From positions 372,001 to 436,000 of the forward strand of contig KV748223.1 of NCBI GenBank assembly GCA_001692895.1: 64,000 bases of DNA, written 5' to 3'. A model generated the notes under the pieces. The model was given only the letters and a program-made list of their open reading frames with translations. It had not been told where the DNA came from and did not search any database. The position numbers and the translations under genes were made by a program. Within the stretch, counting starts at the first letter, position 1; the number at the start of each line of letters is the position of its first letter. Below, piece after piece: positions 2,646 through 35,426 of the stretch. Origin of the DNA: Cenococcum geophilum 1.58 (Eukaryota; Ascomycota; Dothideomycetes; Gloniales; Gloniaceae).

Positions 2646-2862
2646 TTAGGCGCTAAAATAGGCCCCTCTAAATTTGGCTGGCTAGTATATTTAAAATAGC
2701 TTTACCCTTACTTATTAACTATAAGTAGCTATCTATCTTCTCTTCTTTTATTAGACCTACCTATTCTACTTACTATCTACCTTACTTATCTTTAAGCATT
2801 TATTAATAGCAGTATTATACTAACCCTCCTTTCTTTAATATATTTGCTAATAATAACGTAAT
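2646..2862. other. Upstream region of the DUF3435 gene
   Basis: AT-rich, no gene seen. It starts with a GC-richer patch (about 2646-2690), followed by a TATA-like TATATTTAAAA (about 2687). It ends at the candidate ATG at 2863. It could hold the original promoter of the DUF3435 gene. I see no clear terminal repeat of a Starship or Crypton here. Confidence 0.4.
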
Positions 2863-4150
2863 ATGCGATAATACCTATTAAATAAATACTCTTTGTCTAA
2901 GGAGAGTAAATATATAAATTTAAAAACTAATAAAGCTAGTTCTAGTATAGACTTAACTAATATTAATACCTATAGTAATAAAAACAATAATAATTGGGTA
3001 TAGCTTCTTGCTAATAAAGGCTACTCGCCTAAGTACTACCTTAAATAGCTTAACACGTTTAATAAAGCAGAATATATAAAGAAGGATTATAAACCTAGTA
3101 GTACCCGTCTACTTAACCGCATTAAAAAGTAGTGGTATTAGTAAGCAGCCTATCTCTTTCCATTTCCCTACCGTGTTATACTACCCTAATAGCGCTAATA
3201 TATAGTATAGGTTCTGGGCGTATTTAGGAAAGAACCCTTAAAAGGCCTATATAACTATCTCTTTTTGCAATCTTTATAGCTTTTTTTTAACTAGCTACTT
3301 AATTAATACTAAGGGAAAGAAAGAAGGAGGCGCTGTAGAACTAAGGTATTAAGCTCCCTTAAGATATACTAGAAGGTCTACCGCCTTATATATAAAAGAG
3401 CGACTAGTATAAAGCTTAATAGTCGGTTAAATAGGAATATATATAAGGTGAGCGTATTTTAACTGCTTTTAGATATTATATACCCCAGGCTTTAGATATA
3501 ACTAATTTTAGGGGTTAGGTGCTTAAAAAGCTAGCTAAAAAGTATAGCTTAAAGAAGATAGGGCTAGAGAAGCCCTATATATATATAGAGGACCTTATAA
3601 AAGTGCTGTAGATAAACCTAATAACGACTAAAAAGAGGTACTCCTATAGACGCTATAGGATACTACTCTAGCTATATTTATAACTGGGTAGTTTTATTAT
3701 AAATCGGCCTTAAGCCCTCCTTAATCTCTACTATTAGTATATTAGGGTTACGCTACTCTAGGACCTAGAGGGTGGGCTCCACTATATTTTACTAAAATTT
3801 ATATTTAAATTTATAAGGGAGTACCTTAGTGTAAAAGATATATAGGTTTTTAAAGTTCTATCCTTTCCTTTTAGTTTCTACTATTTATAACGTTATAAAA
3901 TAAGTACTAATACTTACCTACTAACTAGAAATACCTTCCCTATCCCTTACCTTTAGCCCCTATATCTTCCTTCTTAGTCTCCTTTTTACTAATTAGGCGT
4001 TTATAGTATATAATCTTATATCTCCTAAGGAGCTAAGTAAGCTCTATATTAAGCCAGGTTATAATAAGCTACTATTATAGCTAAATTGGAAACTAGACGA
4101 TATTTCTATATTCTACCAGTTAGTAAGGACTCTAAATAGCTAAACCATTT
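2863..4150 (+). pseudogene. DUF3435 protein (tyrosine-recombinase-like, Starship-captain family), N-terminal and core piece
   Basis: First of three pieces of one gene. The chosen ATG (2863) opens a frame with YSLSKE and INLKTNKASS. The core DUF3435 block follows around 3540-4146: a segment like YIEDLIKVL, one like NLYYQYIRVTLL, then EGGLHYILLKFIFKFIREYL, then SPYIFLLSLLF and ISPKELSKLYIKPGYN, ending with LDDISIFYQLVRTLN. These match the family from memory. The N-terminal part and the core are in different frames, so an intron or indel lies between about 3150 and 3540. Many CAG/CAA codons now read TAG/TAA, as RIP produces. Gypsy-1 cuts the gene at 4150; it resumes at 12035. DUF3435 proteins are related to tyrosine recombinases and mobilise Starship elements. 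The gene is dead. Confidence 0.88.
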
Positions 4151-4571
4151 TGTAATAAAGTCTTATAGTAGGAACTACGGTAGACTTATTAATGGGCTAG
4201 GTATATAGGTATAGAATAGTTAACAACGTAATAATAACTTAGTAGAGTGGTTGCCTAATAGATTAACTCTAATTGTATTCTAAGATTTACTATAAAGGAG
4301 AGAACTATTTAGGTAGGGACTATGGTCCTTTAAATATATAACTATACTTCTAAGAAATCCCCTTTATACGTAAGGTATGTATACTCTATTTACTCTATTT
4401 TAGATTATATAGATCCTATAAATTATATAGATTACGTTATATAACCTTAGCTACTATTCCTTATTATATAGTTCTATCAGCTCTATTCTAAACCGTACCT
4501 ATATTAATTAACTAGCTTCTTCTAACTCTTCTCTAAGTAGTTATAATATTATACTTAAAGCGTTTATAACA
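4151..4571 (-). repeat. 3' LTR of Gypsy-1
   Basis: Matches 11614-12034 end to end at the same length (421 bp), and is homologous to the LTRs at 12906-13326, 34136-34555 and 60215-60641. A purine-rich tract (minus strand) abuts its inner edge near 4572-4590. Confidence 0.9.
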
Positions 4572-5635
4572 CTATCTCCCTCCTCTTTATCTTCGTCCTT
4601 AAAGATTTTAAATATCTTTAAGTTGCTTACCAGAGGTATAATACCCATTTAATTAATTTGGTTAATATTATTACTTATTATACCTAAAGCTTCTTCTTCT
4701 TCTTTAACTGCTCGTCGCGCTCGTACTATTACTACGATATTATCTCTTAGTAAGATTATACCGTTTTTATATTCTCGCTATTTAAAAGAGGGGTTAGTTT
4801 ATATTATATTAATAAACCTATCTTCACAATAACCGTCCTCTTACTTAGAGTGCACTAAAGCGAATATTTATTTATCTTATAATATTTACTCTATCTCTAA
4901 TACTAAATATATACAATCTATTACTCTTAATAGTTATCTAATTTCTTAACTAATTTATCTTAGAGTTTTGTATTTAATCTACTGCTGCGCGGCTAGATAA
5001 TAAACTATTAGTTACCCTAGCGGAGTTATATTATTCTTATAATGCTAAATAGGAGGCTACTAATACTTAGTAACGGGCCCTTAAGTCTTATCTTATGGCG
5101 TCCGCTTAGTTAATCTATCTTAAAAAGGGTTATAAAAAGGTCTATTTTAAAGAGTAGAAACTTATAAAATAAGGTTTATAAAAACTTAGCAATAAAAAAA
5201 CGGATTTTCCTTAGGCTAGAAAGAAAATAAATCTAAGTAGTTTAGTAACGACTCTTCCTAGGTCCCCCTTAGGTGACTTATTCTTTAGTAATTCTTCTTT
5301 ATTAATACTACTTAACCTAATCTCTTCTAATACTCCTCTACTTTTCTTATAGCGTTTTTTAAATTCTCTAGTAGTTCCTAAGTAGTCTTAGTATAGCCTA
5401 TCTACTTAACCTTATACTATATTTTATTGTTAATATCCTTATAATTAATAATCTTTAAAACTTACTATTTATCTTCTTCTTACCCTCTATATATATCTGC
5501 CTTATAAACTAATAGCTTAATATTTCTATATACTAGTTTTAGTATTATAATATACTATATAGGGTAAATTTTTATTTTAGCTAGTAGGTTTAACTTAAAT
5601 ATAACTAGTAAAATCCTTTATATAATTTTAAAAGG

Positions 5636-5709
5636 NNNTAGTNTAANNTAGTNTAACTTNTTACTTAGNNNNNAACTNTTAAAANTTTTNTATAGTAGCN
5701 ATACTTTAT
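5636..5709. other. Cluster of ambiguous bases (N) in Gypsy-1
   Basis: Scattered single and short N runs inside the 3' part of Gypsy-1. Similar clusters lie at about 32525-32826, 53687-53755 and 55573-55643, all inside RIP-mutated repeat copies. This probably reflects unresolved positions between similar copies in the assembly and not biology. Confidence 0.8.
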
Positions 5710-8700
5710 NNCCCTCCTTAAGATCTAGTCCCTTAGATCTCTTAGTATTATAGTACTTTTTTATCCTTTCTTATACTTTCTTTACTAATTCTATAAGGTT
5801 TATATAAAGATTTATTAACGTCTTTATTCTTTCTTTAGCTATACTACTTATTTTTTTTTTACTTACTATAATAATAACAATATTCTTAGCTTATATCCAT
5901 AATTTACCTTAATAGTAATATGCCTATTTCTTCCTATAGTATTACATTATATATAAACTGTATAACTAGTAATAGCAATACCTAATTATTCTGTATATAA
6001 TTAATATAATATTTTAGATACTGCTCTAATATCTAATTTAATCTTTCTATCTAACCGTCTGTCTATAAGTGGTATATAATAGAAGTTACTACTTAAACCC
6101 CTTATTCTGCCAAAAATACCTCCTAAAATGCTGCTATAAATCTTAAATCCCTATCTAATATAATCTTACTTAGTACTCTATATCTTATAAATACTTCTTT
6201 AATATAGATTCTAGCAATATCCTCTGCTAATATTTCTTCTGTATATGCTATAAAGTAGCCCTACTTAATTAACTTGTCTACTATTACTAAGATTATATTA
6301 TAATCTTATCTAGTAATAGGATCTCTTAACTTTAGTAACTTAGTAATAAAGTCCTATAATATAACCTCCTATAGTCTCTCTAGTATTTTAATAGGTTATA
6401 GTCCTCTATATAACTTATATCTTATTAATTTATTTCTTTAGCAATCTAGATACTCCTTTATTACTTTTCTCGCGATATTTTAAATTCTATTAATAATATA
6501 TTCTTCTTAAAGTCTTAATACTAAGCCTATTACTCTATTATGTCTTTAAGTTATTCCCTTATAGAAATCTTCTATAAAATGCTCTACTATGCTCTTTAGG
6601 ATATACTTTACTTCTCTATATTTATATAATATTTCTTTCTCTAGATACTCTAACTATTCTTCTAGCTATATTTTAAAAATTCTTTATACCTAAAAGCTTT
6701 TTAGTGTCTTATAGACTTTTTCTAGTTTATTATCCTCTTAAGTTACTACTAGCTTAGGGTAATTATATTTAATTAACCTATTATTATCTTTACGTAGTAT
6801 TACTCCTAATAGTTTTTTTTATTATTTTATAGTTTAGCTTTTTTACTAAGTGCGTCTACTTTTATATTCTTAGTTCCTTTAATATACTAAATTTTAAAAT
6901 AGTATTCTATAAGTATCTCTACCTATCTAACCTATCTATAATTAAGTTCTTTTATTATTAGAAACCCTATTAGGTTCTTATAATCTATTTTAATTATAAA
7001 TAATTTTTTTACGCTTTATAAAAATGCTTTCTATTCCTTAAGTACTATAACTATACCTAATAACTTCTTATTATAGACGTTATAGTTTAACTCTAGTAGT
7101 GTTATTTTCCTACTATAGTATACTACTAGGTGCTATACGTCCTTATACTTTTATAGTAAGTATACTCTTAGTATATAGTTTAATACGTTTATTTTTATAA
7201 CTATATCTAATTCTAGTTAATAAATCTTAAGGATTAGCTCCTAGGTAAACAACTCCTTAAGTTCCTTTAACAACTTCCTTTATTTATCTCCCTATACCTA
7301 TAGTTTCTCTTTCTTTATAAGTCTAGTAAAAGGTTTAATATTCTTTAACTATTATACTATAAACCTTTAATAGTAATTATAAAACCCTAAAAATAACCTT
7401 AACTGTATTATATTTTCTAGTTCTTGCTAACTTAATATAGCTTTAATCTTCTTTAGGTTTATACTAATATAATCTAGTTTAATAATAAATTTAATAAAAT
7501 TAGTCTTCCTTATAAAGAACTTGTATTTTTTAATTACTACTAGCATCTATTCTTCCTATAGTCTCTTTAAAACCCATTTAATATATTCCCCGTATTCTTC
7601 CTTAGTTATTAAGTAAATAATAATATTATTAAGGTATACTATAATAAACTTATTAAGGTGTTCTTCTAATATACTATTAATTCTTTTCTAAAATATTATA
7701 GGTGTATTTATTAATCTAAATTATATAACTAATAGTTTATATAGTCCTTCTCTTAACCTAAAGGCTGCCTTCTATTTATTACCTTTTTTAATTTTAATCT
7801 AATAATACGCCTATCTTAGATCTATCTTTATAAAGATTTACGTATTACCTATCTAGTCTTAGATTTTACTAATTAAGGGTAAAGAATACCTATTCTTTTA
7901 AGTAATACTATTTAACTATTTATAGTTAATATATAACCTAAGTTTCCTATTTTTCTTTAGTATAAATAGTACTAGATAACCTACTAATAACTATAATAGT
8001 CTAATATATCCCTTTTATAAGTTTTCTTAAATAAACTCTTTAAGTGCGCTTACCTCCTCTTAAGTAAGCTTATAGGTTAGAAAGAACCTTAGACTTATTT
8101 TTAGTTTTAACTCTATCTTATAGTCCTATACTATATATTCTACTAGCTTTTTACTTTCTAAGCTTTATAGTTTCTTACTATACTTATAGTATCTTTTTAG
8201 TATATAACTTAAGCCTTACTTAGTCTCTTTATATATTACTCTAACTTAATACTATACTAACTTAGTCTGCTATTATATCTTATATTATTAAGTATCTTTA
8301 ATATTAACTTATCCTATAATTTAATTAATCTTTAGATTATATTCCTATAATTAAGGTATACCTAATACTATCTTATCCCGTCCTAATAGTAGGATATTAA
8401 AAGATATTTTAATTAATTTTTCTTTAATGGTTATCTAAATAGGTCCTATTTTAAGATTAATAATCCCTCCTCTATAGGCTATTAGATCTCCTAAAATTAT
8501 AACTAATAGGTAAGGCTATTCCTTCTATCTATAAGGTAATCCTATTCTCTTAACTGCTATTAGTAAGATATAGTTCCGCGTTACTCTACTATCTATTAAT
8601 ACTTTAAACTTTTAATCTTACCATTTAATTTATAAATTTAGGTATTATTTTTAAATTCCTTTAAGGGTCTAAGGCTTTACTATTAGCTCCCCCTAGTTTT

Positions 8701-11613
8701 ATAGGCCTCTACTTTTCCTAACTATTGGCTGTTTAATCCTATTATACTTAGCTTACTCTTTAGCTAATACCTAGTTCGCTTTTTATCTTTAATATACTAT
8801 AAATACGTATTTTTTAGGCATTCACACTATTATTATCCGTCTAAGTATTCTTTTATAAGGAATCTTCCTAGTTAAAGTATTAAATCTTCTTCCTCTTAAA
8901 CTTCTGTTGGATGCCAGCTATATATATACTTAGCATTTTTATACTATTATTTATCTAGCACCTAATATATCCTTATAGGGTATTTCTAATTCTTTTCTTT
9001 TAGGTTTTTATATATTATATATATATTATCTATATATATAATCTATAATAGCGTATAGTACGCTAGGTACTTTAGGTTAACTCTTAACTTATTCTTATCT
9101 TTAAGTTTAAACCTTTACTATATTAATCTAAATATTATAACTTTATTTATAGGTACTAAGATATATTTTTACTTCTTTAATCCTCTAATTATTCCTTTAG
9201 ATCCTTTAATATTATAATTAAGGCTCCTTTAATATAAGTTATGGCCTTCTCTATAATTAGGTAGTCTTAAATAACTTATTCGTCTAACTATATATAGAAA
9301 TCTTCCCACTTATCGTTATATTGCTGCCTATACTACTTTTAATACAGTTACTAAAGTATATATAGCTTATCCGTAAGAAAGTATCTTTTTATTACTATAT
9401 TATAATAGCCTTTTATATATTATTCTTTAAACCTAATAGGGATTTCTAAATCCTCTTTATTTTCTAGTTTAGTAAGCTACTTAGTTTTAGGTATACCTAC
9501 TCTCGGCCTATTAATAATCCTTTATACTAGTGCTCTATTCTTTATATATCTAAGTATACTAAATCTCTTATTTAGTTTCTATTCTTACTATATAATAATT
9601 CTTTATCTAAATTCTTCTATAGTTTCTTTTAGTTTACGTCTTATAGATAGATTTTTAAAGTTTTCTTACTTCTTAATCTTAGTATTAGCGTGTTAATCCT
9701 ATTACTAAATTTTATTTATAATTTTCTTAGTAGTTCTTATTTATTTCTAAAAATCTTAGTTCTATAGGATTCTTAATCCTAAGCTTACTTCTATCTTAAG
9801 CTTTACTCTAGCCTTAGTTTAACTAAGCTTTACTAGTATTTTTATCTTATCTTAAAAGTTTTAAATCTTACTTATCTTATCTTAAGAGTCTTATATCCTT
9901 AAAAAACTTCGTCCTAAGCTTATTTATATATTGCTAAACTAAGCTATTACTCTACTTTATTGGTTATTGTTTATTATAGGTCCTTAAGCTTACCTTATCT
10001 TATCTTAAGAATCTTAGTTGTCTTATATCTTGTCTTAAGAATTTTAAGCTTTTAGCTTTTTACCTTTATTAAGTACTAAAGTAGTTTACTATCCTACTTT
10101 TCTTATATCTTATAAAGCAATAGATATTATATTTAGTGGGGTCTTAATCCTAACTAATATTCCCTATTCTATAGTGGAATTATCCTCTACTTCTTATATA
10201 ATATCTTTAAGGTTTATATACTTTTAGTAAGCTACCTTTATTACCTTATTATTATAAAATATTTTATCTATATTAAACTTATTATCCTTAATATCTAATC
10301 TATAAACTAGTTTATTAGTTTCTCTAAACTCTACTAATTTTAGCTCTTATAGCTAATAGCTTATACTATACTTAGCATCCTTATAAATTTAGTATACGTT
10401 ATTATAACAAAATATAAAACTATTAATTAAATATTCTTTTATTCCTTATAGTATACTATTATCCCTCTATATATATATATCTTCTACTAGTCTTATTCCT
10501 TTTACTATATAGTAACTCTAACTACTTTTATAGTCTTTAATATAGTAACCTTATTTTCCGCAATTTATATAAGCTCTTTTTTAAAACTATTTTTCCTACT
10601 ATAAAGTTTGCCTAAACATCTTCTGCTATTAAAATCCTTAATTTAGCCTTTACTTTTTAGACCTCTAATTACTTAATCCTTATCCTCTAGGTTTCTATAA
10701 TCGTTTATTCTATTTCTTATTTTCTTTAATACTACTTAGGTCTATTAGCTCTACGCTATACTATAGTTTTTAACTTTAACTTTATTATTACGTGCTTTGC
10801 GCCTTATATAACTATAAAACTCTATTTTAACCCTTCTTAGTCTATTCTCTCTAGTAAATCCTATTATTAATCTTAAATACTTAGTTAATTAAATTCCTAA
10901 AAGTATTTATATCTTCTATTAGAATAATTACATCCTAGACTTTTACCTTAAGTCCCTATTTATACTATACTATAAGCGCTTTATTATTCTATTTAACCTA
11001 TATTACTAATATTTAAAACTATATTATATACTTAATTACTAAAGTTCTTTATACTAGGTTTTAAAGCTTTCTTTTTACTATTATAGTTACCTTTAAGTCT
11101 CTAAATATTTATATTAATTATTTTATAAACCCGTTTTAACTTAAGAATATATACTAAACCTTTTAGTTAGTAGTTATTATACTATATTCTTATATTTCTA
11201 TAAGGTAAAATTTAAACTATTTAAGCGCCCTTCCCGTTAAGAATAATCCTATATAAGTAACTTAATCTATAAGCGTTCCTAGTTTAACTCCCTCTTATAT
11301 AACCTTAAAGTACATTTATATAAGGAATCCCTTAAGCTTTAATTTTTCTCCTAAGAATTGCTTAATTAAGGGTAACTTAACCTTAGCTACTCTAATCCCA
11401 CTAATCTTTTTTTTTAAGTATTTTATTATTATCTATTAATTAGTTAACTATTTTCTATAGCTATCTAACGGTAATTAACTAAGAGTTAGTATTTTCTGCT
11501 ATACTAGTATTATTACCTAATCTTAATATAATTACTGCTATTAACAGCGTTATAGCTAATACTTTTAGTGGTATATTATTTAACTTCTTTTACTATAATT
11601 ATGGTAGTAAATA

Positions 11614-12034
11614 TATAATAAAGCCTTATAGTAAAAACTATAGTAAATTTATTAATAGGCTAAGTATATAGGTATAGAATAGTTAACAACGTAATAATAA
11701 CTTAGTAGAGTAGTTGCCTAATAAATTAACTTTAATTATATTATAAGATTTACTATAAAGGAGAGAACTATCTAGGTAGGGACTGTGGTCCTTTAAATAT
11801 ATAACTATACTTTTAAGAAATCCCCTTTATATATAAGGTATGTGTATTTTATCTACTCTATTATAGATTATATAGATCCCATAGATTATATAAATCACGT
11901 TATATAACATTAGCTACTATTTCTCGTTATATAGTTCTATTAGCTCTATCCTAGACCATGCCTATATTAACTAACTAACTTCTTCTAACTCTTCTCTAAG
12001 TAGTTATAATATTATACTTAAAGCGTTTATAACA
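11614..12034 (-). repeat. 5' LTR of Gypsy-1
   Basis: 421 bp, ending on the plus strand in AACA (TGTT on the element's own strand). It pairs with 4151-4571. Confidence 0.9.
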
Positions 12035-12905
12035 CTTTTCTTATAATAAACCTCTTTTATATTTTACCCTTATACCTTAGACTAAAGGGCTTAAAGAGAT
12101 TACTAGCTTTACTTAGGTGTCTCGCCTATATTTGCTTAGATATAATACTAAAAAGGCATTTAATAAGAATAATAAGCTCTGTTACAACTAGCCTTTCTAT
12201 TAAAAGTACTAAAGAAAAATATAGGCAACGTTAGTAAGGCTATATAAAACCTAATAATATAGTATACTAATATATAAACGTTCTTAAGGCACTACCTATT
12301 ATAACGTATTATAGTAGATATATAGGCGATTATCTAAGGCCTCTAGCCCTAAGATATACTAATGCGGGCCGCTTATACTATAAGCCGTTTAATTAATTTT
12401 TAATAACTACGGCGGCTTATAATAGAATAATCTTTATTAGTTAACAATTATCCTACTATTTATTCTCTACTTAAGTAAAGAGAGTAACTTAAATACCGTC
12501 TTAAAGGTAAAGCTATAAAATATCTAAAGTATAAGGCGCTTAATGGTGAAATTAATAGGGAAAGGCAACGCTAGCGGTATATACTTTTTAAAGATATTAA
12601 GGAGACCTAGAAATAGGAGCAACTAGTATATAATATTAAACTGTAGCTTGTTGGCGTTTAAGTTAATATAGAGGCTAAGGTAATAATGGATCTCTATAAA
12701 GGCATATTATTAAAATAAAAGGAATTAGTTAATGCGGTCGTTAGCCTATTAGGTACTATATTTAAAGAGGAGATTTATTAATATAATAGGGCTATTTATA
12801 CGGTTATATAATACTATAAGGTTAAGGAAAGTAAAATATACCCTACTGCTTTTAAACTTTATAAACAATCTAGTAGTTATATAAGACTAGTTAAGACAAT
12901 AAATA
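12035..12905 (+). pseudogene. DUF3435 protein, middle piece
   Basis: Continuation of the DUF3435 gene between Gypsy-1 and Gypsy-2. Early on a segment like LRYNTKKAFN fits the conserved part of the family that follows the core. From about 12470, recognisable features are YRLKGKAIKYLKYKALN, then ILFKDIKETQKQEQLVYDI, a segment like QLVGVQVNIEAKVIMDLYKG, and a run like EEIYQYNRAIYTVIQYYKV. These resemble the basic, helical C-terminal region that follows the recombinase-like domain in DUF3435 proteins. RIP-type stops are frequent. The piece ends at the AATAA target duplication of Gypsy-2 (12901-12905); the matching GATAA is at 34556-34560. Confidence 0.85.
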
Positions 12906-13326
12906 ATATTACGGACGCTTTAAGTACAATATTATAACTACTAGGAAAGGAGTTAAAAGAAGCTAGTTAGTTAATTTAGGCGCGGTCTAAAATGGAGCCG
13001 ATAGAGCTATATAATAAGGAATAGTAACTAAGGTTATATAACGTAATTTATATAATTTATAGAATCTGCAAGATCTATAATAAAGTAGGTAGAGTATACG
13101 TACCTTATATACTAAGGGGATTTCTTAGGAGTATAGTTATATATTTAAAGGACTATAATCCCTACCTAGATAGTTCTCTTCTTTATAGTAAATCTTAGAA
13201 TATAATTAGAGTTAATCTATTAGGCAACTACTCTACTAGTTATTATTATATTATTAACTATTTTATACCTATATACCTAGCCTATTAATAAGTTTACCGT
13301 AGTTCCTACTATAAGGCTTTATTATA
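12906..13326 (+). repeat. 5' LTR of Gypsy-2
   Basis: 421 bp, homologous to 34136-34555. The expected terminal TG and CA now read TA and TA, which fits RIP. Confidence 0.9.
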
Positions 13327-15483: not shown

Positions 15484-15665
15484 TATCGGAATATTTACGT
15501 ATAGCATTAGGCCACGACAAGCGAAGCGAAGTGAAGCGAAGGGGCCTTAAGCCCCTTTTCCTTGCATAGCTTTAAGAATTAATTAACTATTATTATATTA
15601 ACTAGTAAAGACTATTTAACTACGATTCCGGCCTATTATAATAGGTATCCCTAGTAATACTAACA
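15484..15665 (+). repeat. 5' LTR of Copia-3 (182 bp)
   Basis: Starts TATCGG (RIP-altered TGTCGG or TGTCAG) and ends AACA. It contains GCGAA pentamer repeats followed by a hairpin with arms AAGGGGC and GCCCCTT around CTTAA (15539-15557). Same length as 21446-21627. Confidence 0.9.
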
Positions 15666-18600
15666 CTAATTAGTGGTTATTAATTATTAACTATAGAATA
15701 GTAAGGAATCTGTTTAGAAGAGGCTAAACTGTAAATATCAGGATTGTATCCCCACCCCTTTATAGGAATGTGCTAGAGGTAATTAGTAAAGTAACTTTAA
15801 AGGCTTCTAGAGGAAGCTAGTATATATCTTTAGTAAGTGTTAAAGAAGCTATATAAGATTTCTAAGGACTTATATAGAATTAGTAAGCTAAGAACCTTTC
15901 TTTCCGTCTAACTCTTTAAGTCGCGTCTATTACGCAGAACAACAACATTTATAAGGACTTAAGTAGAATCGGTAAGCTAAGAACCTCTCCCTCTACTAAT
16001 GCTCTAAGTCTCTATTAAGAACGTTATTATAATAACCTTAACTTTACCTCTAATCTACCTACAAACCCGACCTTATATTACTTTTAACTATATTAACCCC
16101 TTTTGAACCAGTTAATTAATATATTATTATAAGATAAATACGCCTATAATAAAGAGAAATAGGGAGAATTATTTAATCCTATAAATAAAGCTAACCTTAA
16201 TACAGAAATAGTAAATAGATATATTATATACTATATCCAGTACTACTAAGATAAGAAGTTTAAGGACCGAATCCTATAGGAATACTTTTAAGAAGATTTT
16301 AAAGGATAGATAAAGGATATCTTTAATCTTAGTTATAAGAATTTAGTTTAAATATTACGGGATTACTTATAAGTATATAGATGCTACGTAGGTAGAGATA
16401 GGAGAACCCTTTCTATAAACTTATAAATTGCTATTAAGGAAGAAGAATATTATAAATAGACTAAAGAAGAAATTAATTAGCAGCTTAGAAAAGGCGGCGA
16501 ATTTTATTTATAGTGGAACCCTATAAATTGTAAGTTATAAGCACTAAAATTAGTAGAAGCATTAATACCCTAGACTACTCTAGAGACACCTTAAGCTACC
16601 TTGGCTATACTAGCAGCAGCAAAGCAGCATTAATAAGATATCCCACAAGATTAACATACCTACCCTCCTTTACCACTATTATAGCTAAATATACCTGTAT
16701 TATAGAACTTACCTATACTATATAACCTACCTATATTAATAAACCGGTTTAAATTGCTATTACTATTATAAATGCCCGCAATTGTAATAAGGATATTACT
16801 TACACAACTATGTAATGAATAAGCTTAACTACCTTACTAGCACTACCATAAATAGAATATGTAGAACTAATAATAACCCTAGATTACTTTAACTAAGCTA
16901 CTTATAGACTTAATAAAGTTTTATACTAATAATACTAAGAAGTATAGAGGAGAAGTATATAATATTCTTAATGCCAAGCTATAAGTATTCTATAATTATT
17001 ATATTATAGTTAAAGTGCTAGAGGAATAATATTACATAGCATTTCTAATTATGCTTAAGGATTGGGTAAGCAATTTTTACTATAATAAGATTACGGGAAG
17101 ATTGTATAACTTTATTATAATAGTATAAATAGTGAAGATATACTTTAAGACTAAGGAAAACCGCTAGCTGTATATATTGGAATAGAGAGAGACTATATAT
17201 TAGCGAATTATTAACGCCAACTTAGAAAAATTACGACTTAAGTATCTGTAAATGCTCTTTAATAAACTCTAAAAGATCTAACGTAGACTATTAGAAGAAT
17301 ACTAAAGAGAATATAGTCTTTAGGATTAAGTTATTAGTGCCTATAGAGGTGTTAATAAGTATAGTCTTGTATTATATAACCCGGCCACTATATTTAAGGG
17401 TATGTATACTTAGTTGCGATTAGTAGTAGGAACAGTAGTATATACCTAAAAAATATAATAATACTATACGTAAACTGCCCCCCAGAAGCAAGATAATTAA
17501 AGTAATACTAAGCAGTACAACTAGAATTAGACCAATTATATATATAGAGGACCCCAAAGAGGCTCCTAGCGTAAATCACGTCTACATAAAGAAGGATACT
17601 AAAGTAGAGGAAACTACTATAGCGGATATCGCAACTACTACCTACCCCGTTAGAAGCAATGCTATATCTATAATAAGCCTAGATACTAGTTAAGTAAGTA
17701 TATAGTAGAAGACAGATAATAAGTATATATTAAGTATTAATAATATACCTAATATATAGGAGAGTAGGAAGTTATATTAGCCTAGTATTACGGCTTCCTT
17801 GCTATATAGGAAGGAGTAGAAGATCTTCTAAATAATAACGTAGGAGAAGTAGACCATATAATGATAAGTATAGAGATTAAGGAGGAATATAGTATATATT
17901 TTACGGAGTTTAGAGAAGTTAATAGTACCTAGACTATAGCTATTTTAAACAACCAGTCTACCTAGCACACGGTTACTGGCGAAGATATCTTTAAGGCACT
18001 ACTACTATAGTTGCTAAAGACCTTAGTATTTATATTTAAGGACTAATATTCATTAGAGGTCTTTTAGGGCATTATACTAGATAGCGGAGCTATAGGTATA
18101 TTAACTACTGGCTAACTTTAATTTTAGGCATTATAAAAGCTTAATACTAGTGTCTAACTTAATACTACCATAGCTGGAGCTTACAAGATTAGATTTGGTA
18201 AAGGCACTATATTATTCTAAGGCACTATCTAAGTTCCTACCCCGCTAGGTATTATTACCTTCTATATTATCTTAGTAAATATACCATTCTTATTTTATAT
18301 CTAAGATATAGATAAAATAGGTATTAAGCTAGATAATCTTTAAAATATTTTAATCTAAGGCAATAAGATTATCCTAGTTATATAAAAATGGGGCCATTTA
18401 TAGATGTTACTCTACTAACCAGAACATAGTATTGCCTAGAGTTACTTAACTAAAACTAAATTACGTTAATTGCATAAACGCTTTAGTTATCTATTAGTTT
18501 AATAACTAACTAAAGTTCTTTAATAAGCTAGATATAAAGTAAATTCTAAGGCTATTAAATACCTTATAAAATACTGTTACTATTACCAGATATATACGAA

Positions 18601-21315: not shown

Positions 21316-21380
21316 ATTTGCGGCAATATGCGGCAATATACGGCAATGTGCGGCAGTTTATGGCAATCTACCTAATACTG
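21316..21380 (+). repeat. Tandem repeat with 10-bp period (CGGCAATATG-like) in Copia-3 3' region
   Basis: About six units of the form CGGCAATATR follow one another every 10 bp between the RNase H region and the 3' LTR. Copia-2 has the same array (about 55471-55537) and Copia-A a related one (2171-2226). Confidence 0.8.
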
Positions 21381-21445
21381 CCCAGTACTATCTAGTACAA
21401 TTTATATATATTCTAGTCTTAGGCTATAAAAGAAAAAACTGCCTA

Positions 21446-21627
21446 TGTTAAAATATTTATATATAGCACTAAGCCATAATAAGCGAAGCGAAGCAAAGCG
21501 AAGGGGCCTTAAGCCCCTTTCCCTCGCACAGCTTTAAGAATTAATTAACTATCATCGTATTAACCAGCAAAGACTGTTTAACTACAATTCCGGCCTATTG
21601 CAATAGGTATCCCTAGTGGTACCAACA
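21446..21627 (+). repeat. 3' LTR of Copia-3 (182 bp)
   Basis: Begins TGTTAAAATATTTA and ends CCAACA, followed by the target duplication TTATT. It carries the same CTTAA-loop hairpin as the 5' LTR. Confidence 0.9.
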
Positions 21628-24600: not shown

Positions 24601-24737
24601 AGAAAAGTAATAAAGGAGTGTTTAGATTACTAAAGAAATAAATTAATAAGGCATAAGCTATATAGAAGGCTATAACCTATTAAATTACTAGAGAGACTAT
24701 AGGAGGTTATATTATAGGACTTTATTATTAAGTTACT

Positions 24738-24934
24738 TATTAGGAATAAAGGCAAATGGTTACCATATAAGGCATATTGCCGTCACGTATAGCAAGTTGC
24801 CATCACGTGCCGCCGCGGCACTAGCGTGGTAAGGAACCTTAAGTTCCTCACCCCTTTCTTCAAGAAGAGAACAATAATAATCATCATACTATCTACGAAC
24901 CATAGCTATGTAATATCCCCTTGTGTAACTAACA
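24738..24934 (+). repeat. 5' LTR of Copia-B (197 bp)
   Basis: Begins TATTAGGAAT (RIP-altered TGTTAGAAAT) and ends AACA. Two hairpins are visible: arms GTGCCG and CGGCAC (24807-24821), and arms GTAAGGAAC and GTTCCTCAC around CTTAA (24829-24851). Confidence 0.9.
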
Positions 24935-27900
24935 CTAATTAGTAATTAACTTTACTATTATACCATAGAACAGCTAGGTATTCCACTAAAAAGAAATAAG
25001 CCACTGTACTAGTGCTACTCGTGCTAAAGAAAGCTATCTTTTAAGGTTAGAACTAGTCCTAAACCTTAAATAGAACTCTTCTATAAATCTAAAGATCTAA
25101 AGGCTAGAACTAGTCCTAAGCCTTTCTAAGATTACGGATTCTTGCGTCTATTACGCAGAATAATACGCTTTACAAGTCTTCGCGATTTAAGGCTAGAACT
25201 AGTCCTAAGCCCTATAACCGTAAATATACGTTATAAACGCGTACTAAATAATAAACGCGTACTAAATAATAAATATACATTACAAACGCGTACCAAATGA
25301 TAATCCCTATACTAATAACACTTCCCTCCCTCCAAAAACATGGCTACGCCTACCTTAAATAACTAGAAAAACTTCTTACCACTAGGGGTAGCTAAGTACG
25401 CAAAACTTATTAATAAAGATTAGGACGAATTCGCCTTTAATATAATAACTTATACCGCAAAACAAGTTAACGGCTTTCTCCTACACTATATTATATTCTA
25501 CTAAAATAGATACTATACCGACTTACAACTATAAGAGTATTTTAGGGAGGATTTTATAGGATAGACTGCTGATACCTAAGTACTTAGCAACGTTAATATT
25601 ATTTAGGACTTTTAAAACTTCCTCTATAGGAATAGGGTATATATTACTAAGAACAGTAACCTAATTGCTAGCAATATTTAGGCTGTTATTATTAGTATAG
25701 AAGAACTAATATAGACAGAAGCTAAGATTATATATTAACTACGGAAACCTAAAAATAACCTATATTCTTTAGAAGGCAACTTTAATTCGTATTAAAACCC
25801 CTAGAACGCTAACCCCCTACCTAGAGCTACTCTCCTACCTAGAGGTGCTCTCCTACTTAGAGTTGCTCCGCTTTTACCTCTTCCACTTTAGCTAACTAGT
25901 AAGCCTTTACTATAAGAAGTTACGAATCTAATAAAGGTATATTCGGATAAAGAGAAGAAGTTTAAAGGAGAACTATATAATATACTTAGAGTAAAACTAT
26001 AGGTCTTTTATAACTATTGCAATAAGGTTAGAATTTAACGCCACTAGTACTATTACGCTTTCTCTATTATATTAAAGGGACGGGCGGTAATATTCTATTA
26101 CGACCATATTATGGGTAAAAACTATAACTTTAATGTAATGCTTTAGCTTATTAGAGCCCACTTTAAGACTAATAAGAATTGCTAACTTTATATATCTAAA
26201 TGGCGGGAGACTATGTTCTAAAGAGTTATTACTTCTAACCTAACAAAGACTTATTTAGAGTACCTTTAACTACTCTTTAATAAACTTTAGAAAATCTAAC
26301 GTAGCTTTACCAAAACTTACTAAAATAAGAATAGCCTAAGGGACTAGGTTATTTTAGTATGCTATAGCGTTCCTAAGTGTAACTTAGCGCTATATAAACC
26401 TATAGATACGTTTAAAGGAGTATATACTAAGCTACGCTCTACTGTAGGTACTATAATATAAATATAAGAATCTTAATAGTTCTATACTAAAAACCCTACC
26501 TAACTAAGTATTCCCGACTAATATAATTATAACTAGACTAATTAAATATATAGTGGCCGCGGTAGGGAATACGGAAGAGGGTATAATTAACGTTAACTAT
26601 AAGGTAATTATAGAGGTCCTTATAGAGGTTTATTTTAAAGTAATTACTAAAAGAAATACTACGTTTATAAGAAGCCAAATTGCTAGTTAACTAGACACTC
26701 CCTTAATAAGCGAAAAGAGGCATATAATAAGTTCCGTTAGAGTATAAGAAATATTAGAAATAATAAGATTACTATAGCCTACTTCTAAAGCTTCCTAGTT
26801 TAATATAAAGGCGTAGAAGACCTTAAAGGTAAGGTTAATAAGACTAAACAGCTCCTTATAGATATAGAAATTAAGGACTACTTACCTAACCAATACTTTA
26901 CTAAGTATAGTAAGGTAAATAGCATATAAACTATCGCTATCCTTAATAACTAATCTACGCTCTATTCTATTATAAAGTTAGATATCTTTAATAAGCTAAA
27001 GGAGAGCTCCGCGTTTTCCTTTAATAATAGATACTTAGTAAACGTCTTCTATAATATTATACCGGATACTAGAGCCGTAAGAGTATCTATAGTAGGAGAA
27101 CCTTAAGTTCGAGCCCTTTAGCAGCTTAATAGCTCTGTTTAGATTAACTATTTAACGGCAGGCTAGCATATAATTTGTTTTAGTAAAGGTACTATAATCT
27201 CTCTTAGCATAATTAGGGTTTAAACCCCCTTAGGGTACATTAGTTTTCACGTTATTCCTATAAACACCCTATTTTTATTTTATATTAGAGATATAAATAA
27301 ATTAGGCATTAAGCTTAATAACCTTAAGAATATACTTATCTAAGGAGATAATTGGGTGCCCGTTATACGCAAGTAGGGTTACCCCTAGTTACTCCTTTAT
27401 TAACTAGAAAAGAGTATTACTTAAAGCTACTTAACTAAGTTAAAGTTACGCCAACTATACTATCGTTTTAGCCACCTATTCGTTTATTAATTGCTTAGGG
27501 TTCTTTAGTAAGTAGGCTATAAAGTTAAGGTTAAGGCAATTAAGCATCTTATAAAGTATTACTATTACTACTAAATAAACCAGAAGTCCCCTAGCCGATT
27601 TAAGTTTACCCTTAAGGATAACTATAACTTTAACTTCTATATTATTATTAACGTTATATATCTTAGCGGCAAGCTAGTACTCTAAGTTATTAACTTCTTA
27701 ACCTCCTTCTAAGCCGCGCGTTTCTTAAAAGATATATTAGCCAGAAACGTATAGGAGACCCTTTAGTTATGCTAGATTAATGTCTATTTAGGACCCCCTA
27801 ATTAAATCATCTATAATATAGGAAAGAACTTCTTATCTATAAAGTTTTAACAATAGATAAAGGCAATAGCAATTAAGGTCAAGGAAGTCCCTATTAAGGC

Positions 27901-27989
27901 ACATAATAGTATTAAAAAAGTAGAATAATATTATGCGCTATTACGCCGCGTATATAAGATTATCTCTTTAGAACTAAAGGACGCTAGTA

Positions 27990-29574
27990 AAGAACTTACC
28001 TTATAAATAGCTGTTAAAGCTATTAACAATTCCGCTAGCCCGGATAGACTTATACCTACATTACTAGTTTTTAGCGCCTACCCTTAAATAACTAATAATT
28101 CTCTACTATCTCCCTCCGTTATATAATAAGCTAAGGCTATTTATAAGGCAATAAAGGAGGTGCGATATCTCTACGCNATANGCTAGGTTAATAACGCACT
28201 AGGAATAAGAAATAGCCTAAATACCTTAACTACGCTCGATCTGCCACTCTAGTCTAAGGTACGCGTATAACGTAAAAAGAAAGAATGGTTAGGCCCATAC
28301 CAACTTATTATAATTAATAGTTAAACTTATATTATTTAAATACCTTACGGACCTACTTAATTCCGTTTAACTATTATTAAGCCTTACTATAAAGATAATA
28401 ATTCTAAGCCTTTATAGGATGCCCTAGAAGATACCCTAAAAGAGAACTACAATTAATATACTCTAGAAGGCAACTATAATCCCAATATAATTATAGTAGA
28501 TGCGCCATAACCACGACGCGGTAGAAGTTACCCGAAGGGATTATATAATTACTAACATCTTATTAATTTTAAAGAACAATTTATTGCCGCCATTAAGAAT
28601 AGAGTTAAGTTATTAATAGCCTTTATAACAGCTAAGGAGAAGGCTAACTTTAAGCTCGCAAAATAGCTCTAAAAGGAAGGTTATATTATAACTCTAGGAG
28701 CTCCTTTCTAAGCATCTAATAAGTAGGAGATTAATAGTCTCATTATAAGAGGAGTCTTTAAATTTAAGAAGTATGACCCTACCAAATTTGGTGGAGTTTA
28801 TATCTTTAAATTAAGAATAGTTAATAAGATTAAGGGCAAAGCTACTAACGCCCTATTTAAGAAATTAAGGCTTATTATCTAAGGTCACAACAATAATAGT
28901 AAGGAGGTAATTCTTACGTAATCTCCCATAATTTAACAAGCTAGTTAGCGAGTTATTATTGCGCTAACTCCCTCCTTAATAAAGAATAGAATAGCGGTTT
29001 ATTTATAAGATATTACTTAAGCCTACACTTAATTAGAGACGCCCCTTTAGCGCTTAATACTGGCATACCTTCCAGAGCAAATTCGCTACCAGTATCCTAA
29101 AGATATAATCATAGTTATACTTAAGCCATTATATAGAATCGCAGAGGTAGAAACTTATTAGTAGGCTACCTACAGCAAGCACCATAAAGAGAAGCTTTTA
29201 ATAACTACTTCTATATTTAATCCCTGCTTCCTTATTATAACCACGGGAACCCTATTTAGAATTGTCAGTATATAAACTAATAATATAATTATCTTAGGAG
29301 ACGACCAATTCTTAGCTCTTAAAGAGGATAAGCTAGTAAAGGTAAATCTTATAGCAAAGCTAAAGGAAAAGCTTAACTTAACAATACCATTACTCTTTAA
29401 TAGATGCATCCTCTCCCTAAACAAGGATTCCATTACTTTACGCCAGAAGGGTTAAAGCAAGAAGATTAACGTTATTAACGTTAATTCTCTAAAGCAAGAG
29501 TATATAGAGCAACGTGCTTACAAAGCTTATATTACTTCTATCTATTAACCCAAGGCTTTATTTAATCTCTCTAT
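27990..29574 (+). repeat. Tandem duplication, copy 1 (1585 bp, in Copia-B)
   Basis: Covers late integrase through reverse transcriptase of Copia-B. It is repeated directly at 29575-31159 with an offset of exactly 1585 bp. The two copies agree everywhere I compared them, including ambiguous N bases at 28177 and 28181 that recur at 29762 and 29766. Confidence 0.95.
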
Positions 29575-31159
29575 AAGAACTTACCTTATAAATAGCTGTT
29601 AAAGCTATTAACAATTCCGCTAGCCCGGATAGACTTATACCTACATTACTAGTTTTTAGCGCCTACCCTTAAATAACTAATAATTCTCTACTATCTCCCT
29701 CCGTTATATAATAAGCTAAGGCTATTTATAAGGCAATAAAGGAGGTGCGATATCTCTACGCNATANGCTAGGTTAATAACGCACTAGGAATAAGAAATAG
29801 CCTAAATACCTTAACTACGCTCGATCTGCCACTCTAGTCTAAGGTACGCGTATAACGTAAAAAGAAAGAATGGTTAGGCCCATACCAACTTATTATAATT
29901 AATAGTTAAACTTATATTATTTAAATACCTTACGGACCTACTTAATTCCGTTTAACTATTATTAAGCCTTACTATAAAGATAATAATTCTAAGCCTTTAT
30001 AGGATGCCCTAGAAGATACCCTAAAAGAGAACTACAATTAATATACTCTAGAAGGCAACTATAATCCCAATATAATTATAGTAGATGCGCCATAACCACG
30101 ACGCGGTAGAAGTTACCCGAAGGGATTATATAATTACTAACATCTTATTAATTTTAAAGAACAATTTATTGCCGCCATTAAGAATAGAGTTAAGTTATTA
30201 ATAGCCTTTATAACAGCTAAGGAGAAGGCTAACTTTAAGCTCGCAAAATAGCTCTAAAAGGAAGGTTATATTATAACTCTAGGAGCTCCTTTCTAAGCAT
30301 CTAATAAGTAGGAGATTAATAGTCTCATTATAAGAGGAGTCTTTAAATTTAAGAAGTATGACCCTACCAAATTTGGTGGAGTTTATATCTTTAAATTAAG
30401 AATAGTTAATAAGATTAAGGGCAAAGCTACTAACGCCCTATTTAAGAAATTAAGGCTTATTATCTAAGGTCACAACAATAATAGTAAGGAGGTAATTCTT
30501 ACGTAATCTCCCATAATTTAACAAGCTAGTTAGCGAGTTATTATTGCGCTAACTCCCTCCTTAATAAAGAATAGAATAGCGGTTTATTTATAAGATATTA
30601 CTTAAGCCTACACTTAATTAGAGACGCCCCTTTAGCGCTTAATACTGGCATACCTTCCAGAGCAAATTCGCTACCAGTATCCTAAAGATATAATCATAGT
30701 TATACTTAAGCCATTATATAGAATCGCAGAGGTAGAAACTTATTAGTAGGCTACCTACAGCAAGCACCATAAAGAGAAGCTTTTAATAACTACTTCTATA
30801 TTTAATCCCTGCTTCCTTATTATAACCACGGGAACCCTATTTAGAATTGTCAGTATATAAACTAATAATATAATTATCTTAGGAGACGACCAATTCTTAG
30901 CTCTTAAAGAGGATAAGCTAGTAAAGGTAAATCTTATAGCAAAGCTAAAGGAAAAGCTTAACTTAACAATACCATTACTCTTTAATAGATGCATCCTCTC
31001 CCTAAACAAGGATTCCATTACTTTACGCCAGAAGGGTTAAAGCAAGAAGATTAACGTTATTAACGTTAATTCTCTAAAGCAAGAGTATATAGAGCAACGT
31101 GCTTACAAAGCTTATATTACTTCTATCTATTAACCCAAGGCTTTATTTAATCTCTCTAT
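29575..31159 (+). repeat. Tandem duplication, copy 2 (1585 bp, in Copia-B)
   Basis: Second direct copy. It ends at TCTCTCTAT, after which the element continues into RNase H. Because even the N positions are shared, an assembly artefact is at least as likely as a real recent duplication. Confidence 0.95.
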
Positions 31160-31858
31160 TATGGCTTAACACTAGAAACCAACTAAGGATAATATCCTTG
31201 CCCTAAATAAGCGTCTTTTTTAGTAAATAAACCATTTTAATCGGGGACTACTCTATATACCTATTAATCTTCCTATTACTAAGCTCTTTGTATTTATTAA
31301 TAGATCGTTTATAAACAATAAAGATTTTAGCTCCTAGTTAGGATATAAAATTATTATCATAAACAAATTTACTAGAGAGAATAACTTTATAATCTATAGC
31401 AATCTTATCTATTAGAGCTTAACTAAGAGTAAGCGCGTTACCTAAAGTGTTTTAGTATTAGAGATATATAGAATGGTTAGCGGAGTTAATATAGTAATTG
31501 CAATTAGAACTACCCTAAAGATAATTATAGATTAACTTAAACTTCCCGTTATCCCTATAATCGTATACACCGACTTATATTCCCTCTATAAGTGTTTAGT
31601 TAAGCTTAGTACTATAAAAGAGAAGCGCCTTATAATTAATATTATGGCACTTTAGTAATCCTATAAGCGTTAAGAACTCTTTAAGATTTAATAGATTAAT
31701 AGCTAAAATAACCTAGTAGATATAATAACAAAGGCAAACCCAAATAAGGCACTAGAGACGTTTATTAATATAAATACTCTGCGTATATAAGTTAAAGGTT
31801 AGGTTAAAAGGGAGTCCCTAGAAATTTCTTAGTTACGTAAGGTCTTAAGATATCTAGG

Positions 31859-31881
31859 AACTTTAACCAGCAATTAAAGTT
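31859..31881. repeat. 23-bp palindrome module, RIP-altered copy in Copia-B 3' region
   Basis: Arms AACTTTAACC and an imperfect partner AATTAAAGTT. Related copies lie at 39396-39418 (unmutated), 41566-41588 and 54116-54138. The flanks are shared too (GATATCTAGG on one side, an AATTAGTCAGAT-like stretch on the other). Confidence 0.75.
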
Positions 31882-31929
31882 ATCTAATTAGTCAGATTCT
31901 GCAGACCCTAACTCAAACCAGCCAATTAG

Positions 31930-31956
31930 GATTTTCCATCCCCAGGATAGAAAATC
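31930..31956. repeat. 27-bp palindrome (GATTTTC...GAAAATC) in Copia-B 3' region
   Basis: Outer arms GATTTTC and GAAAATC, inner arms ATCC and GGAT. It is related in reverse orientation to the palindrome at 2422-2448, with a compensating change in the inner arms. Confidence 0.75.
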
Positions 31957-31974
31957 GCTATTAGCTCGCTTACT

Positions 31975-31991
31975 GCTAGCGCCTTAGCGGC
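31975..31991 (-). repeat. 17-bp module GCCGCTAAGGCGCTAGC, shared with Gypsy-3/4 LTRs
   Basis: On the minus strand this reads exactly the same 17 bases found at 41260-41276, 59762-59778 and, inverted, at 48453-48469 and 54432-54448. A two-mismatch copy lies at 2387-2402. Confidence 0.8.
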
Positions 31992-32172
31992 CCTACTAAC
32001 AAGATACCTACCCATAACTTATAAGCAAGAAAGCACCACATACTAAGAGGCAAATTTTAGAATAGCAAGACTTATGTTACAATAGCAATAGTAAGTAAGG
32101 AGGATTAATTTTTATTCCGCTAGTTAAGCGGTATATATATATAGATGGCAACTACAAAAGAAGAGTTACTAG

Positions 32173-32369
32173 TGTTAGAAATAAAGGCAAATAGTCACCA
32201 TATAAGGCATATTACCGTCACGTATAGCAAGTTACCATCACGTGCCGCCGCGGCATTAGCGTGGTGAGGAACCTTAAGTTCCTCACCCCTTTCTTCAAGA
32301 AGAGAACAATAACAATTATCATACTATCTACGAACCGTAGCTACGTGATATCCCCTTATGTAACCAACA
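32173..32369 (+). repeat. 3' LTR of Copia-B (197 bp)
   Basis: Begins TGTTAGAAAT and ends CCAACA, followed by TTACT. It has a perfect 9-bp hairpin, arms GTGAGGAAC and GTTCCTCAC around CTTAA (32264-32286). The 5' copy differs mainly by transitions. Confidence 0.92.
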
Positions 32370-34135
32370 TTACTAAAGTTAAAAGATCCTATTACTAGAT
32401 AAGATTATAATATAATCTTAGTAATAGTAAATAAGTTAACTAAGTAGGGCTACTTTATAATATATACAGAGGAGATATTAGCAGAGGATGTTGCTAAAAT
32501 CTATATTAAAGAAGTATTTATAAAANANNGAGNACTAANTAAAATTATATTAGATAGAGATTTAAGATTTATAGCAGTATTTTAGGAGGTATTTTTAGCA
32601 GAATAAGGAGTTTAAGTAGTAACTTCTACTATATATTATCCGCAGACAGAGAGTTAAATAGAAAGATTAAATTAGATGCTAGAGAAGTATCTAAAACATT
32701 ATATTAATTATATATCGAATAATTAGGTATTATTATTACTAGTTATATAGTTTATATATAATATAATACTATAGGAAGAAATAGGCATATTACTATTTAA
32801 GGCAAATTATANATATAAGCTAAGNATATTATTATTACTATAATAAGTAAAGAAAATAAGTAGTATAGCTAAAGAAAGAATAAAGACACTAATAAATCTT
32901 TATATAACCCTTATAGAATTAGTAAAGAAAGTATAAGAAAAAAATAAAAAAGTACTATAATATTAAGAGATTTAAGGGACTAGATCTTAAGGAGGGAAAT
33001 AAAGTATAGCTACTATATAAATTTTTTAAAAGTTAACAACTAAGTAAGAAGTTAAACTCTATTAGACTAGGACCTTTTAAAATTATATAAAGAATTTTAT
33101 TAGTTACGTTTAAGTTAAACCTACTAGCTAAGATAAAGATCTACCCTATATAGTATATTGCAATACTAGAACTAGTATATAGAAATATTAAACTATTAGT
33201 TTACAAAGTAGATATATATAGAGGATAAAAAGAAGATAAATAATAAGTTTTAAAGATTATTAGTTATAAGGACGTTAATAATAAAATATAGTATAAGGTT
33301 AAGTAGATAGGCTACACTAAAACTACCTAGGAACTACTAAGGAATTTAAAAAACGCTATAAAAAAGGTAAAGGAGTACTAGAAGAGATTAGGTTAGGTAG
33401 CATTAATAAAAAAAATTGCTAAAGAATAAGTTACCTAAGGGGGACCTAAGAAGAGTAGTTACTAAGCTACTTAGATTTATTCCCTTCTTAGATAGAAGAG
33501 AATCCGTTCTTTTATCGCTAAGTTTCTATAAACCTTATTCTATAAGTTTTTACTTCTTAAAATAGACTTTCTTATAAACCTTTTTAAGATAAATTAACTA
33601 AGTGGACGCTATAAGACGAGACTTAAGGGCCCGTTACTAAGCATTAATAGCCTCCTATTTAGCATTATAAGAATAGTATAACTTTACTAGAGCCACTAAC
33701 AGTTTATTATTTAGCCGTATAGTAGCAGATTAAATATAAAACCCTAAGATAAATTAATTAAGGAACTAGACGGCTATTAAGAGTAATAGGTTATATATAT
33801 TTAGCATTAAAGACGGAGTAAACGTTATAGGATAAACAAATATTCGCTTTAGTATACTTTAAGTAAGAGAACGGTTATTATAAAGATAGACTTACTAATA
33901 TAATATAGACTAACCCCTCTTTTACACAATAAGAATATGGAGACGGTATAATTTTACTAAGAGATAATATTATAGTAATAGTTTAAGCATAACAAGCGAT
34001 TAAAGAAGAGGAAGGAACTTTAGGTATAATAAGTAACAATATTAACTAAATTAATTAAACGGATATTATATCTCTAGTAAACAACCTAAAGATATTAGGA
34101 ATCTTTAAGGACAAAGATAAAAAGGAGGGAGATAG

Positions 34136-34555
34136 TATTATAAACGCTTTAAGTACAATATTATAACTACTAGGAGAGGAGTTAGAAGAAGCTAATTAGT
34201 TAATTTAGGCGCGGTCTAGAATAGAGCTAATAGAGCTAAATAACGAGGAATGGTAACTAAGGTTATATAACGTAATCTATATAATCTATAGGATCTATAA
34301 GATCTATAATAGAGTAGGTAGAGTATACGTACCTTACGTACTAAGGGGATTTCTTAGGAGTATAGTTGTATATTTAAAGGACCATAGTCCCTACTTAGAT
34401 AGTTCTCTCCTTTATAGTAAATCTCAGAATATAATTAGAGTTAATCTGTTAGGCAACTATTCCACTAGTTATTATTACGTTGTTGACTATTCTATACCTA
34501 TATACCCAGCCTATTAATAAGTCCACTGTAGTTCCTACTATAAGGCTTCGTTACA
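34136..34555 (+). repeat. 3' LTR of Gypsy-2
   Basis: About 420 bp, preceded by the purine tract AGGAGGGAGATAG and followed by GATAA. Homologous to 12906-13326. Confidence 0.9.
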
Positions 34556-35278
34556 GATAAGGCCAAGATTAACTCTTAAGTTAAAGCCTTAAAAGTAGCT
34601 AAAGTATTAATATATAGTAAGAAGAGGCTAAAGATATATTTCCTTTATCTAGGTAATAAAAACCTATTAATTAAATAGCATATATATTCGTTTTATACCC
34701 TAGGTAATCTTAGTAAATACTTTAAGCGGAAGCACCTTATAAATATTAGGGAAGGGGAAAAGATCTAATATAACCTTTATTAGGTTGTTTTAGCGTATAA
34801 GATGCACCTATAATAATATACTAACGATATATACGGTACGGTCTTATAGAGCGCTACAACTGTTTAAAACATAAATTTACTCTATAAATAGTGCAATTTT
34901 AGTTTTAACACTAAGGATTAATTACAGTAAGTAGTCTTAGAAAATTTCTTTTATATTTTATAAGATAGGCTATTTTATATAAACGCTAAGAAACTTTAAT
35001 AGTAATAATGGAGGTTAAACGCGTTTACATTTCTCTAAGGGGATCTCGGGCTTTAAGTATTTTGTCTTAGGGATAAAGCGAAGCTAATAGAAGAATATAT
35101 GCACTAGTTCTACAGCCGGGCCATTCTAAAGAGACATCTCTACCGTAAGTACCTTAATTAACTTAAAAAGGGACGATTAATCAGGTGTGGCTATCCAAAC
35201 TGCGAGGCAGCCCTTGAGAATGACTTGCATGTTCTGCGTCACGCCCATGACGTGCACAAGACCCCAACACTTCTTTAG
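34556..35278 (+). pseudogene. DUF3435 protein, C-terminal piece with C2H2 zinc fingers
   Basis: Third piece of the DUF3435 gene. Around 34640-34845 the frame resembles the paired C2H2 tail of this family: YLGNKNLLIK, then LSKYFKRKHLINIREGEKI, then a segment with AYKMHL and DIYGTVL. Some finger cysteines read tyrosine, a RIP-type change. The same frame continues to a TAG at 35276-35278. The last finger is undamaged: C-x4-C-x12-H-x4-H at 35186-35257, starting CGYPNC and ending HDVH. RIP-type damage fades out around 35165, so the tail lies in the RIP-free island. Added together the three pieces give about 2.9 kb, roughly 950 codons. I infer that all three belong to one gene; I am less sure that the original stop was as far as 35278. 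Confidence 0.8.
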
Positions 35279-35392
35279 TTTCCCATCTTTAAACAAAGTA
35301 GTGGGATCTCTAGAACTATGCAGGTGGCGTACGTTAGGTGTTCTACCAGTCTTAATCAAGGGATACTAGTGCGTAATTAACATTGCAGCCCT

Positions 35393-35426
35393 GGTCGTGC
35401 AAGCTAGGTGGTCGTGCGAGCTAGGT
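35393..35426. repeat. 17-bp tandem repeat, two units
   Basis: GGTCGTGCAAGCTAGGT (35393-35409) is followed directly by the same sequence with one A-to-G difference (35410-35426). Confidence 0.85.

Follow-up and report, generated by a model that had tools for sequence, protein, structure and literature searches.

This locus raises the question of whether three stretches of plus-strand DNA, spread over 32 kb, are the remains of one gene and to what kind of element that gene belonged. The window, meaning the whole stretch of DNA analysed, is 64,000 nucleotides long (contig C48:372001–436000) and comes from a genome of 177 Mb in 162 contigs. A first-pass annotation had proposed a single captain-like DUF3435 gene, mutated by RIP and then split. 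In the published model of Starship elements, the captain is the protein that moves the Starship to a new target by cut and paste (PMC12134995). The pieces very likely represent one captain gene from the DUF3435 tyrosine-recombinase family, located at the 5′ end of a Starship-type element.

One DUF3435 gene opened by LTR elements

The features of the locus, in window coordinates, are the following.

1–2602: 3′ part of an LTR element in the captain's 5′ leader; right LTR at about 2356–2602
2603–4150, plus strand: captain piece 1, with part of the 5′ leader, the start codon equivalent at 2863, and the N-terminal and core part (DUF3435 1–168)
4151–12034, minus strand: LTR element 1, 7884 bp, TG..CA, LTR pair 90.5% identical, duplication CATTT/CTTTT with one mismatch
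12035–12906, plus strand: captain piece 2 (DUF3435 212–410), closing with the duplication AATAA
12907–34555, plus strand: LTR element 2, TA..CA, LTR pair 89.8%, duplication AATAA/GATAA with one mismatch
15484–21627: LTR element nested in element 2, LTR pair 84.6%, TTATT on both sides
24738–32369: second LTR element nested in element 2, LTR pair 92.4%, TTACT on both sides
34556–35360, plus strand: captain piece 3, the C-terminal part followed by a short 3′ flank
35361–35599: sequence directly after the captain, common to two other copies (C31:2074373 and C3:4699650)
36638–38461, plus strand: intact 607-codon HET-domain gene (PF06985, E = 1.8e-34), candidate cargo

Searched alone and with stops read as X, the first two pieces match the Pfam DUF3435 profile (PF11917). 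Piece 1 (2863–4150) covers profile positions 1–90 (E = 2.5e-11) and, in the next frame on, 99–168 (E = 1e-9), while piece 2 (12035–12905) covers 212–410 (E = 1.3e-15). These ranges follow in order and without overlap. Piece 3 (34556–35278) gave no DUF3435 match when one frame and then three frames were searched, and it is tied to the gene through DNA alignment, without profile support. The profile check suggested for all three pieces therefore succeeded for pieces 1 and 2 and failed for piece 3; that the pieces are successive parts of one family still stands, with the alignment supplying the third. The captain would be a tyrosine recombinase by the family relation that the profile match conveys, and PDB searches with it returned just three chance matches (E = 0.49–0.69).

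The alignment draws on other copies in the same genome. Both junctions are crossed without a gap in 14 of 20 copies (L019, L021–L024, L026–L030, and L032–L035), and because the DNA is unbroken over both junctions in these copies, pieces 1–3 are one gene. In L021, for example, window positions 2632–4150 correspond to 3262–4801, 12037–12905 to 4799–5667, and 34555–35360 to 5663–6468. The other six are L017 and L018, which are less clean at junction 1; L020, L025, and L031, in which the break comes no later than junction 2; and L036, a 69% relative.

The breaks themselves carry the marks of insertion. Each of the five LTR elements is flanked by a 5-bp target duplication, which has one mismatch in two cases and is perfect in the nested pair. 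In the uninterrupted copies compared, the 5-bp site occurs once (11 copies at junction 1 and 10 at junction 2), as C/T or G/A variants, and in the window it flanks the insert on both sides with one mismatch at each junction. The edges of the pieces coincide with LTR ends and target duplications, and their first placement was correct to about 2 bases. The three fragments are one decayed DUF3435 gene opened by inserted LTR elements. The notion that three unrelated fragments came together by chance could draw on the abundance of DUF3435 in this genome (at least 165 matches, with the best 100 of 346 candidates scored), but it is refuted, to the point of a negligible probability, by the consecutive and non-overlapping profile ranges, the contiguous alignment in 14 of 20 copies, the single-site copies, and the target duplications at both breaks.

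Element 1 matches RVT_1 (E = 2.5e-11) and RT_RNaseH (E = 1.2e-11) on the minus strand and is the only one of the five LTR elements in which a reverse transcriptase was matched. Element 2 belongs to the family of element 1 and lies the other way round, the two forming inverted-repeat arms, and measures 7863 bp once its two nested inserts are removed, against 7884 bp for element 1. The first nested element gave no Pfam match in three plus-strand frames of 15600–21500. Both proposed splits of the gene are borne out, and a third insertion is added in the 5′ leader. The other part of this leader element lies upstream of the window, from C48:368592, with an LTR pair of 92.7% over 247 bases and TATAC on both sides, and the 5′ end of the captain family is accordingly found in two parts, C48:368350–368591 (the first 242 bases) and C48:374604–374838 (window 2604 on). 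An assignment of the leader element to Copia is unsupported, as there was no Pfam match in three plus-strand frames of window 1–2100. LTR inserts make up 35 kb or more of the window copy. A gene of roughly 2.5 kb can come to span 32 kb through LTR insertion.

Within the nested element at 24738–32369 lies an exact tandem duplication of 1585 bases (27990–29574 and 29575–31159, together 27990–31159). It has zero differences in an otherwise diverged region and is either a recent event or an assembly error. The window also contains 52 scattered N letters (within 5636–5711, 28177–28181, 29762–29766, 32526–32539, 32812–32825, 53687–53755, and 55592–55651).

In piece 3, the equivalent of the stop codon seen in the copy on contig C49 falls near 34849, a second finger-like unit lies near 34980–35110, and the copies change to other sequence at window 35360. 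By arithmetic, with introns not resolved, the gene has about 815 codons up to the C49 stop; counting the second finger-like unit near 35.0–35.1 kb as well would give about 900. The original estimate of about 950 codons looks high, and the gene was probably shorter.

RIP in the gene and in its inserts

The C49 copy (L034, C49:748323–758322) has a GC content of 0.50 and a TpA/ApT ratio of 0.95. The window captain differs from it at 606 of 2870 aligned bases, and 589 of these differences are C>T (310) or G>A (279), a direction that assumes the C49 copy to be close to the unmutated state; 17 are of other kinds. The 589 fall in CpA context in 304 cases and in CpG context in 210, so that the window captain has the C>T and G>A changes with CpA favoured that mark RIP. 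Compared with the C49 copy, eight other copies and the three window pieces show just 0.24–0.46% transversions, and therefore the copies are close if RIP is set aside. A single DUF3435 gene, RIP-mutated and split by two LTR blocks, is what the profile matches, continuous copies, duplications, and C>T/G>A differences jointly support.

The proposed order of events, RIP first and the split afterwards, is not demonstrated by these data: the LTR elements are RIP-mutated too (GC 0.24 in element 1), and the window copy has one of the highest rates of change. The C>T/G>A rates of pieces 1, 2, and 3 are 0.397, 0.446, and 0.381; the other copies, up to 12 in number, average 0.313, 0.350, and 0.335. Set against 11, 12, and 12 others, respectively, the window ranks second, first, and second from the top. 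Such rates would fit further RIP after the split without proving it. L017 reaches 0.410, 0.431, and 0.407 though it lacks these LTR inserts, so a high rate can arise in their absence. Dating the insertions from LTR divergence was abandoned, since transitions make up nearly all of the differences.

The captain family, its 5′ end, and the downstream block

Copies of the captain family occur at no fewer than 21 places in the genome, made up of 19 long matches, a part on C56, and a fragment on C14; the 69% match C12:1476185, a second C11 piece, a 144-base piece on C8, and all weaker rows were omitted. Since the best 40 of 87 candidates were scored for this family, and 100 of 346 for DUF3435 overall, copy numbers are lower bounds. 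A common 5′ end is present at 18 of the 21 places, about 500 bp before the start codon (497 bp in the C49 copy). The DNA before this end differs at 15 edges compared by eye, and for five copies used as queries, homology to most others stops near one point, other repeats aside. As in Starships, the DUF3435 gene leads at the 5′ end and faces inward, and the same end is joined to differing flanks, as expected of a mobile Starship.

Behind the captain the copies diverge into at least four sorts of sequence. One is shared by the window, L019, and L020; another by L021, L027, and L030; a third by L018, L024, L025, L033, and in part L034; and a fourth by L017 and L028. Farther downstream, a conserved block first seen in the C49 copy (L034:8767–9755) recurs. 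Ten of the 21 captains have it within 100 kb downstream on their own strand; it occurs in none of the three other arrangements, and 0.14 would be expected by chance per arrangement. Its distance from the captain start ranges from 4 to 88 kb; the window captain is the 88-kb case, and the 100-kb limit was chosen after this case was known. The description of the gene as captain-like gains strength from the fixed 5′ end a short way upstream of it and from the same-strand block downstream. The block continues to the last base of the sequence read, and the element span is a lower bound.

The family thus has a common 5′ end and, in about half of its members, a common far-downstream block on the same strand; variable DNA separates the two. 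By architecture the wider element is most likely a Starship. From the common 5′ end at 18 of 21 places and the oriented block at 10 of 21, including the window captain, it follows that a derelict Starship of at least 95.8 kb (C48:368350–464199) probably encloses the window, provided that the block is part of this element.

The same data might be read as a small captain-only transposon of about 3–3.5 kb, consisting of leader, gene, and short tail, with target DNA behind it. The sequence behind the captain does vary between copies, with sharp switches just past the gene, and for 11 of the 21 captains no block lies within 100 kb. Random targets, however, would not be expected to yield at least four groups of two to five copies with common downstream sequence, and the block, at the 10 captains that have it, takes one side and one strand and no other arrangement; we consider this reading unlikely. 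It is more improbable still that the block is an independent repeat with a tendency to lie close to captains, which would leave the captains real and the 96-kb element not. The 13 of 23 block places without a window-family captain within 100 kb, and a far end of the block that was not reached, agree with such a repeat, but the strict side and orientation (10 versus 0, 0, and 0) argue against it. The 23 block places were hand-picked, omitting short rows and a repeat of about 200 bases at query 231–424. Block copies with no known window-family captain within 100 kb include C46:1073656, C24:10220, and C39:186581.

If the pieces are the captain of a Starship-type element, its protein would have carried the element to new targets by cut and paste. 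The copies carry RIP-type mutations, and the window gene and its leader were opened by three LTR elements, two of one family in opposite orientation and the larger of these bearing two more. The element would have spanned at least C48:368350–464199, with the window internal to it, and could presumably no longer move by its own captain. We infer that the HET gene was its cargo. Composition is normal after piece 3 (GC 0.495 and TpA/ApT 0.75 in 35600–39500), and the stretch of the HET gene is free of a RIP signature (GC 0.488, TpA/ApT 0.58). With 35361–39500 as the query, the best 40 of 393 candidates held no second copy of the HET gene and matched just a far-end repeat and the 239 bases next to the captain. 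In L034, whose composition is normal, a protein-kinase-like gene (7480–8400, minus strand, PF00069, E = 9.7e-16) sits between captain and block, and C63:404951–407002 holds a stretch with 79% similarity.

Direct repeats are a Starship trait, as are terminal inverted repeats in most members. In this one genome, neither an exact 3′ end nor a direct repeat, a terminal inverted repeat, or an unoccupied site for the element as a whole was found. Two candidate 3′ ends turned out to be breaks in the copies used as queries. In the C49 copy (L034), position 9755 was rejected, as a repeat found at many places starts there, and in the C84 copy (L018), position 8894 was rejected, as other copies run past it. 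The idea of a direct repeat TTACTA common to both ends was dropped because it depended on the 9755 end. The 5′ terminal motif has at least 118 matches genome-wide, against 13 for the reversed pattern, and the matches listed contain no usable 3′ partner for an inverted repeat. Many one-mismatch matches adjoin other DUF3435 genes, and on our own reading they may encode a conserved YYLKQ stretch. As a probe for an empty site, the left flank of L034 returned just a short, very common repeat.

Relation to Starships, solo genes, and other DUF3435 families

Published descriptions of Starships in Pezizomycotina (PMC12134995, PMC12153272) agree with the window element in a DUF3435 gene placed first at the 5′ end and facing inward, in many genomic places, in variable DNA behind the captain, and in decay by RIP. 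The window element differs in that a 3′ end, direct repeats, and terminal inverted repeats were not found, DUF3723 is not near, and the gene is split by LTR elements. Two copies of the family, with captain and block within just about 6–7 kb, are also smaller than the lower Starship size of 15 kb given in one account (PMC12134995). Cryptons resemble the family in having a tyrosine recombinase, by family relation, and in a possible short element. The difference is taken from the published description, in which Crypton and Starship recombinases are very distantly related and cargo is a Starship trait (PMC12134995).

DUF3435 genes are described as more often "solo", and the same account calls it unclear whether the cause lies in element boundaries that escaped detection or in gene decay (PMC12134995). 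A scan for full frames or empty sites would probably list the copies of the window family as solo or miss them, whereas here the 5′ end and the downstream block provide outside evidence of a larger element. The family bears on this question, for 5′ ends and an oriented block can be recognised even for captains that are RIP-mutated and split, and they give testable element limits without a second strain or a long open frame.

The block also occurs near other DUF3435 genes. Around 79 such places it was found downstream on the same strand at 4, upstream on the same strand at 1, downstream on the opposite strand at 2, and upstream on the opposite strand at 3, mostly far off. The captains at C7:3475811 and C10:645618 belong to a DUF3435 family other than that of the window and are followed by the block on the same strand, after 1.8 and 2.7 kb, respectively; a close case on C11 is on the opposite strand. 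Since the C7 and C10 captains carry the block of the window family, and window-family captains precede at least four sorts of sequence, captain unit and downstream block could tentatively be seen as exchangeable modules, although we regard this as doubtful. If true, the genome would be a record of captain swapping between Starships, which has been raised as a question (PMC12134995).

Like ferric reductase, patatin-like, and NLR genes, DUF3723 is a frequent, though not strictly defining, accessory gene of Starships. It lies within 60 kb of 2 of the 21 window-family captains, both times upstream and near chance, and of 20 of 76 other DUF3435 places, where 4.3% would be expected. Four of these other DUF3435 copies have a convergent DUF3723 gene 11.2–11.3 kb downstream, and five have one 31–34 kb downstream (e.g., C45:103165 with C45:114390, and C62:837704 with C62:804490). 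These convergent sets look like two further decayed Starship families.
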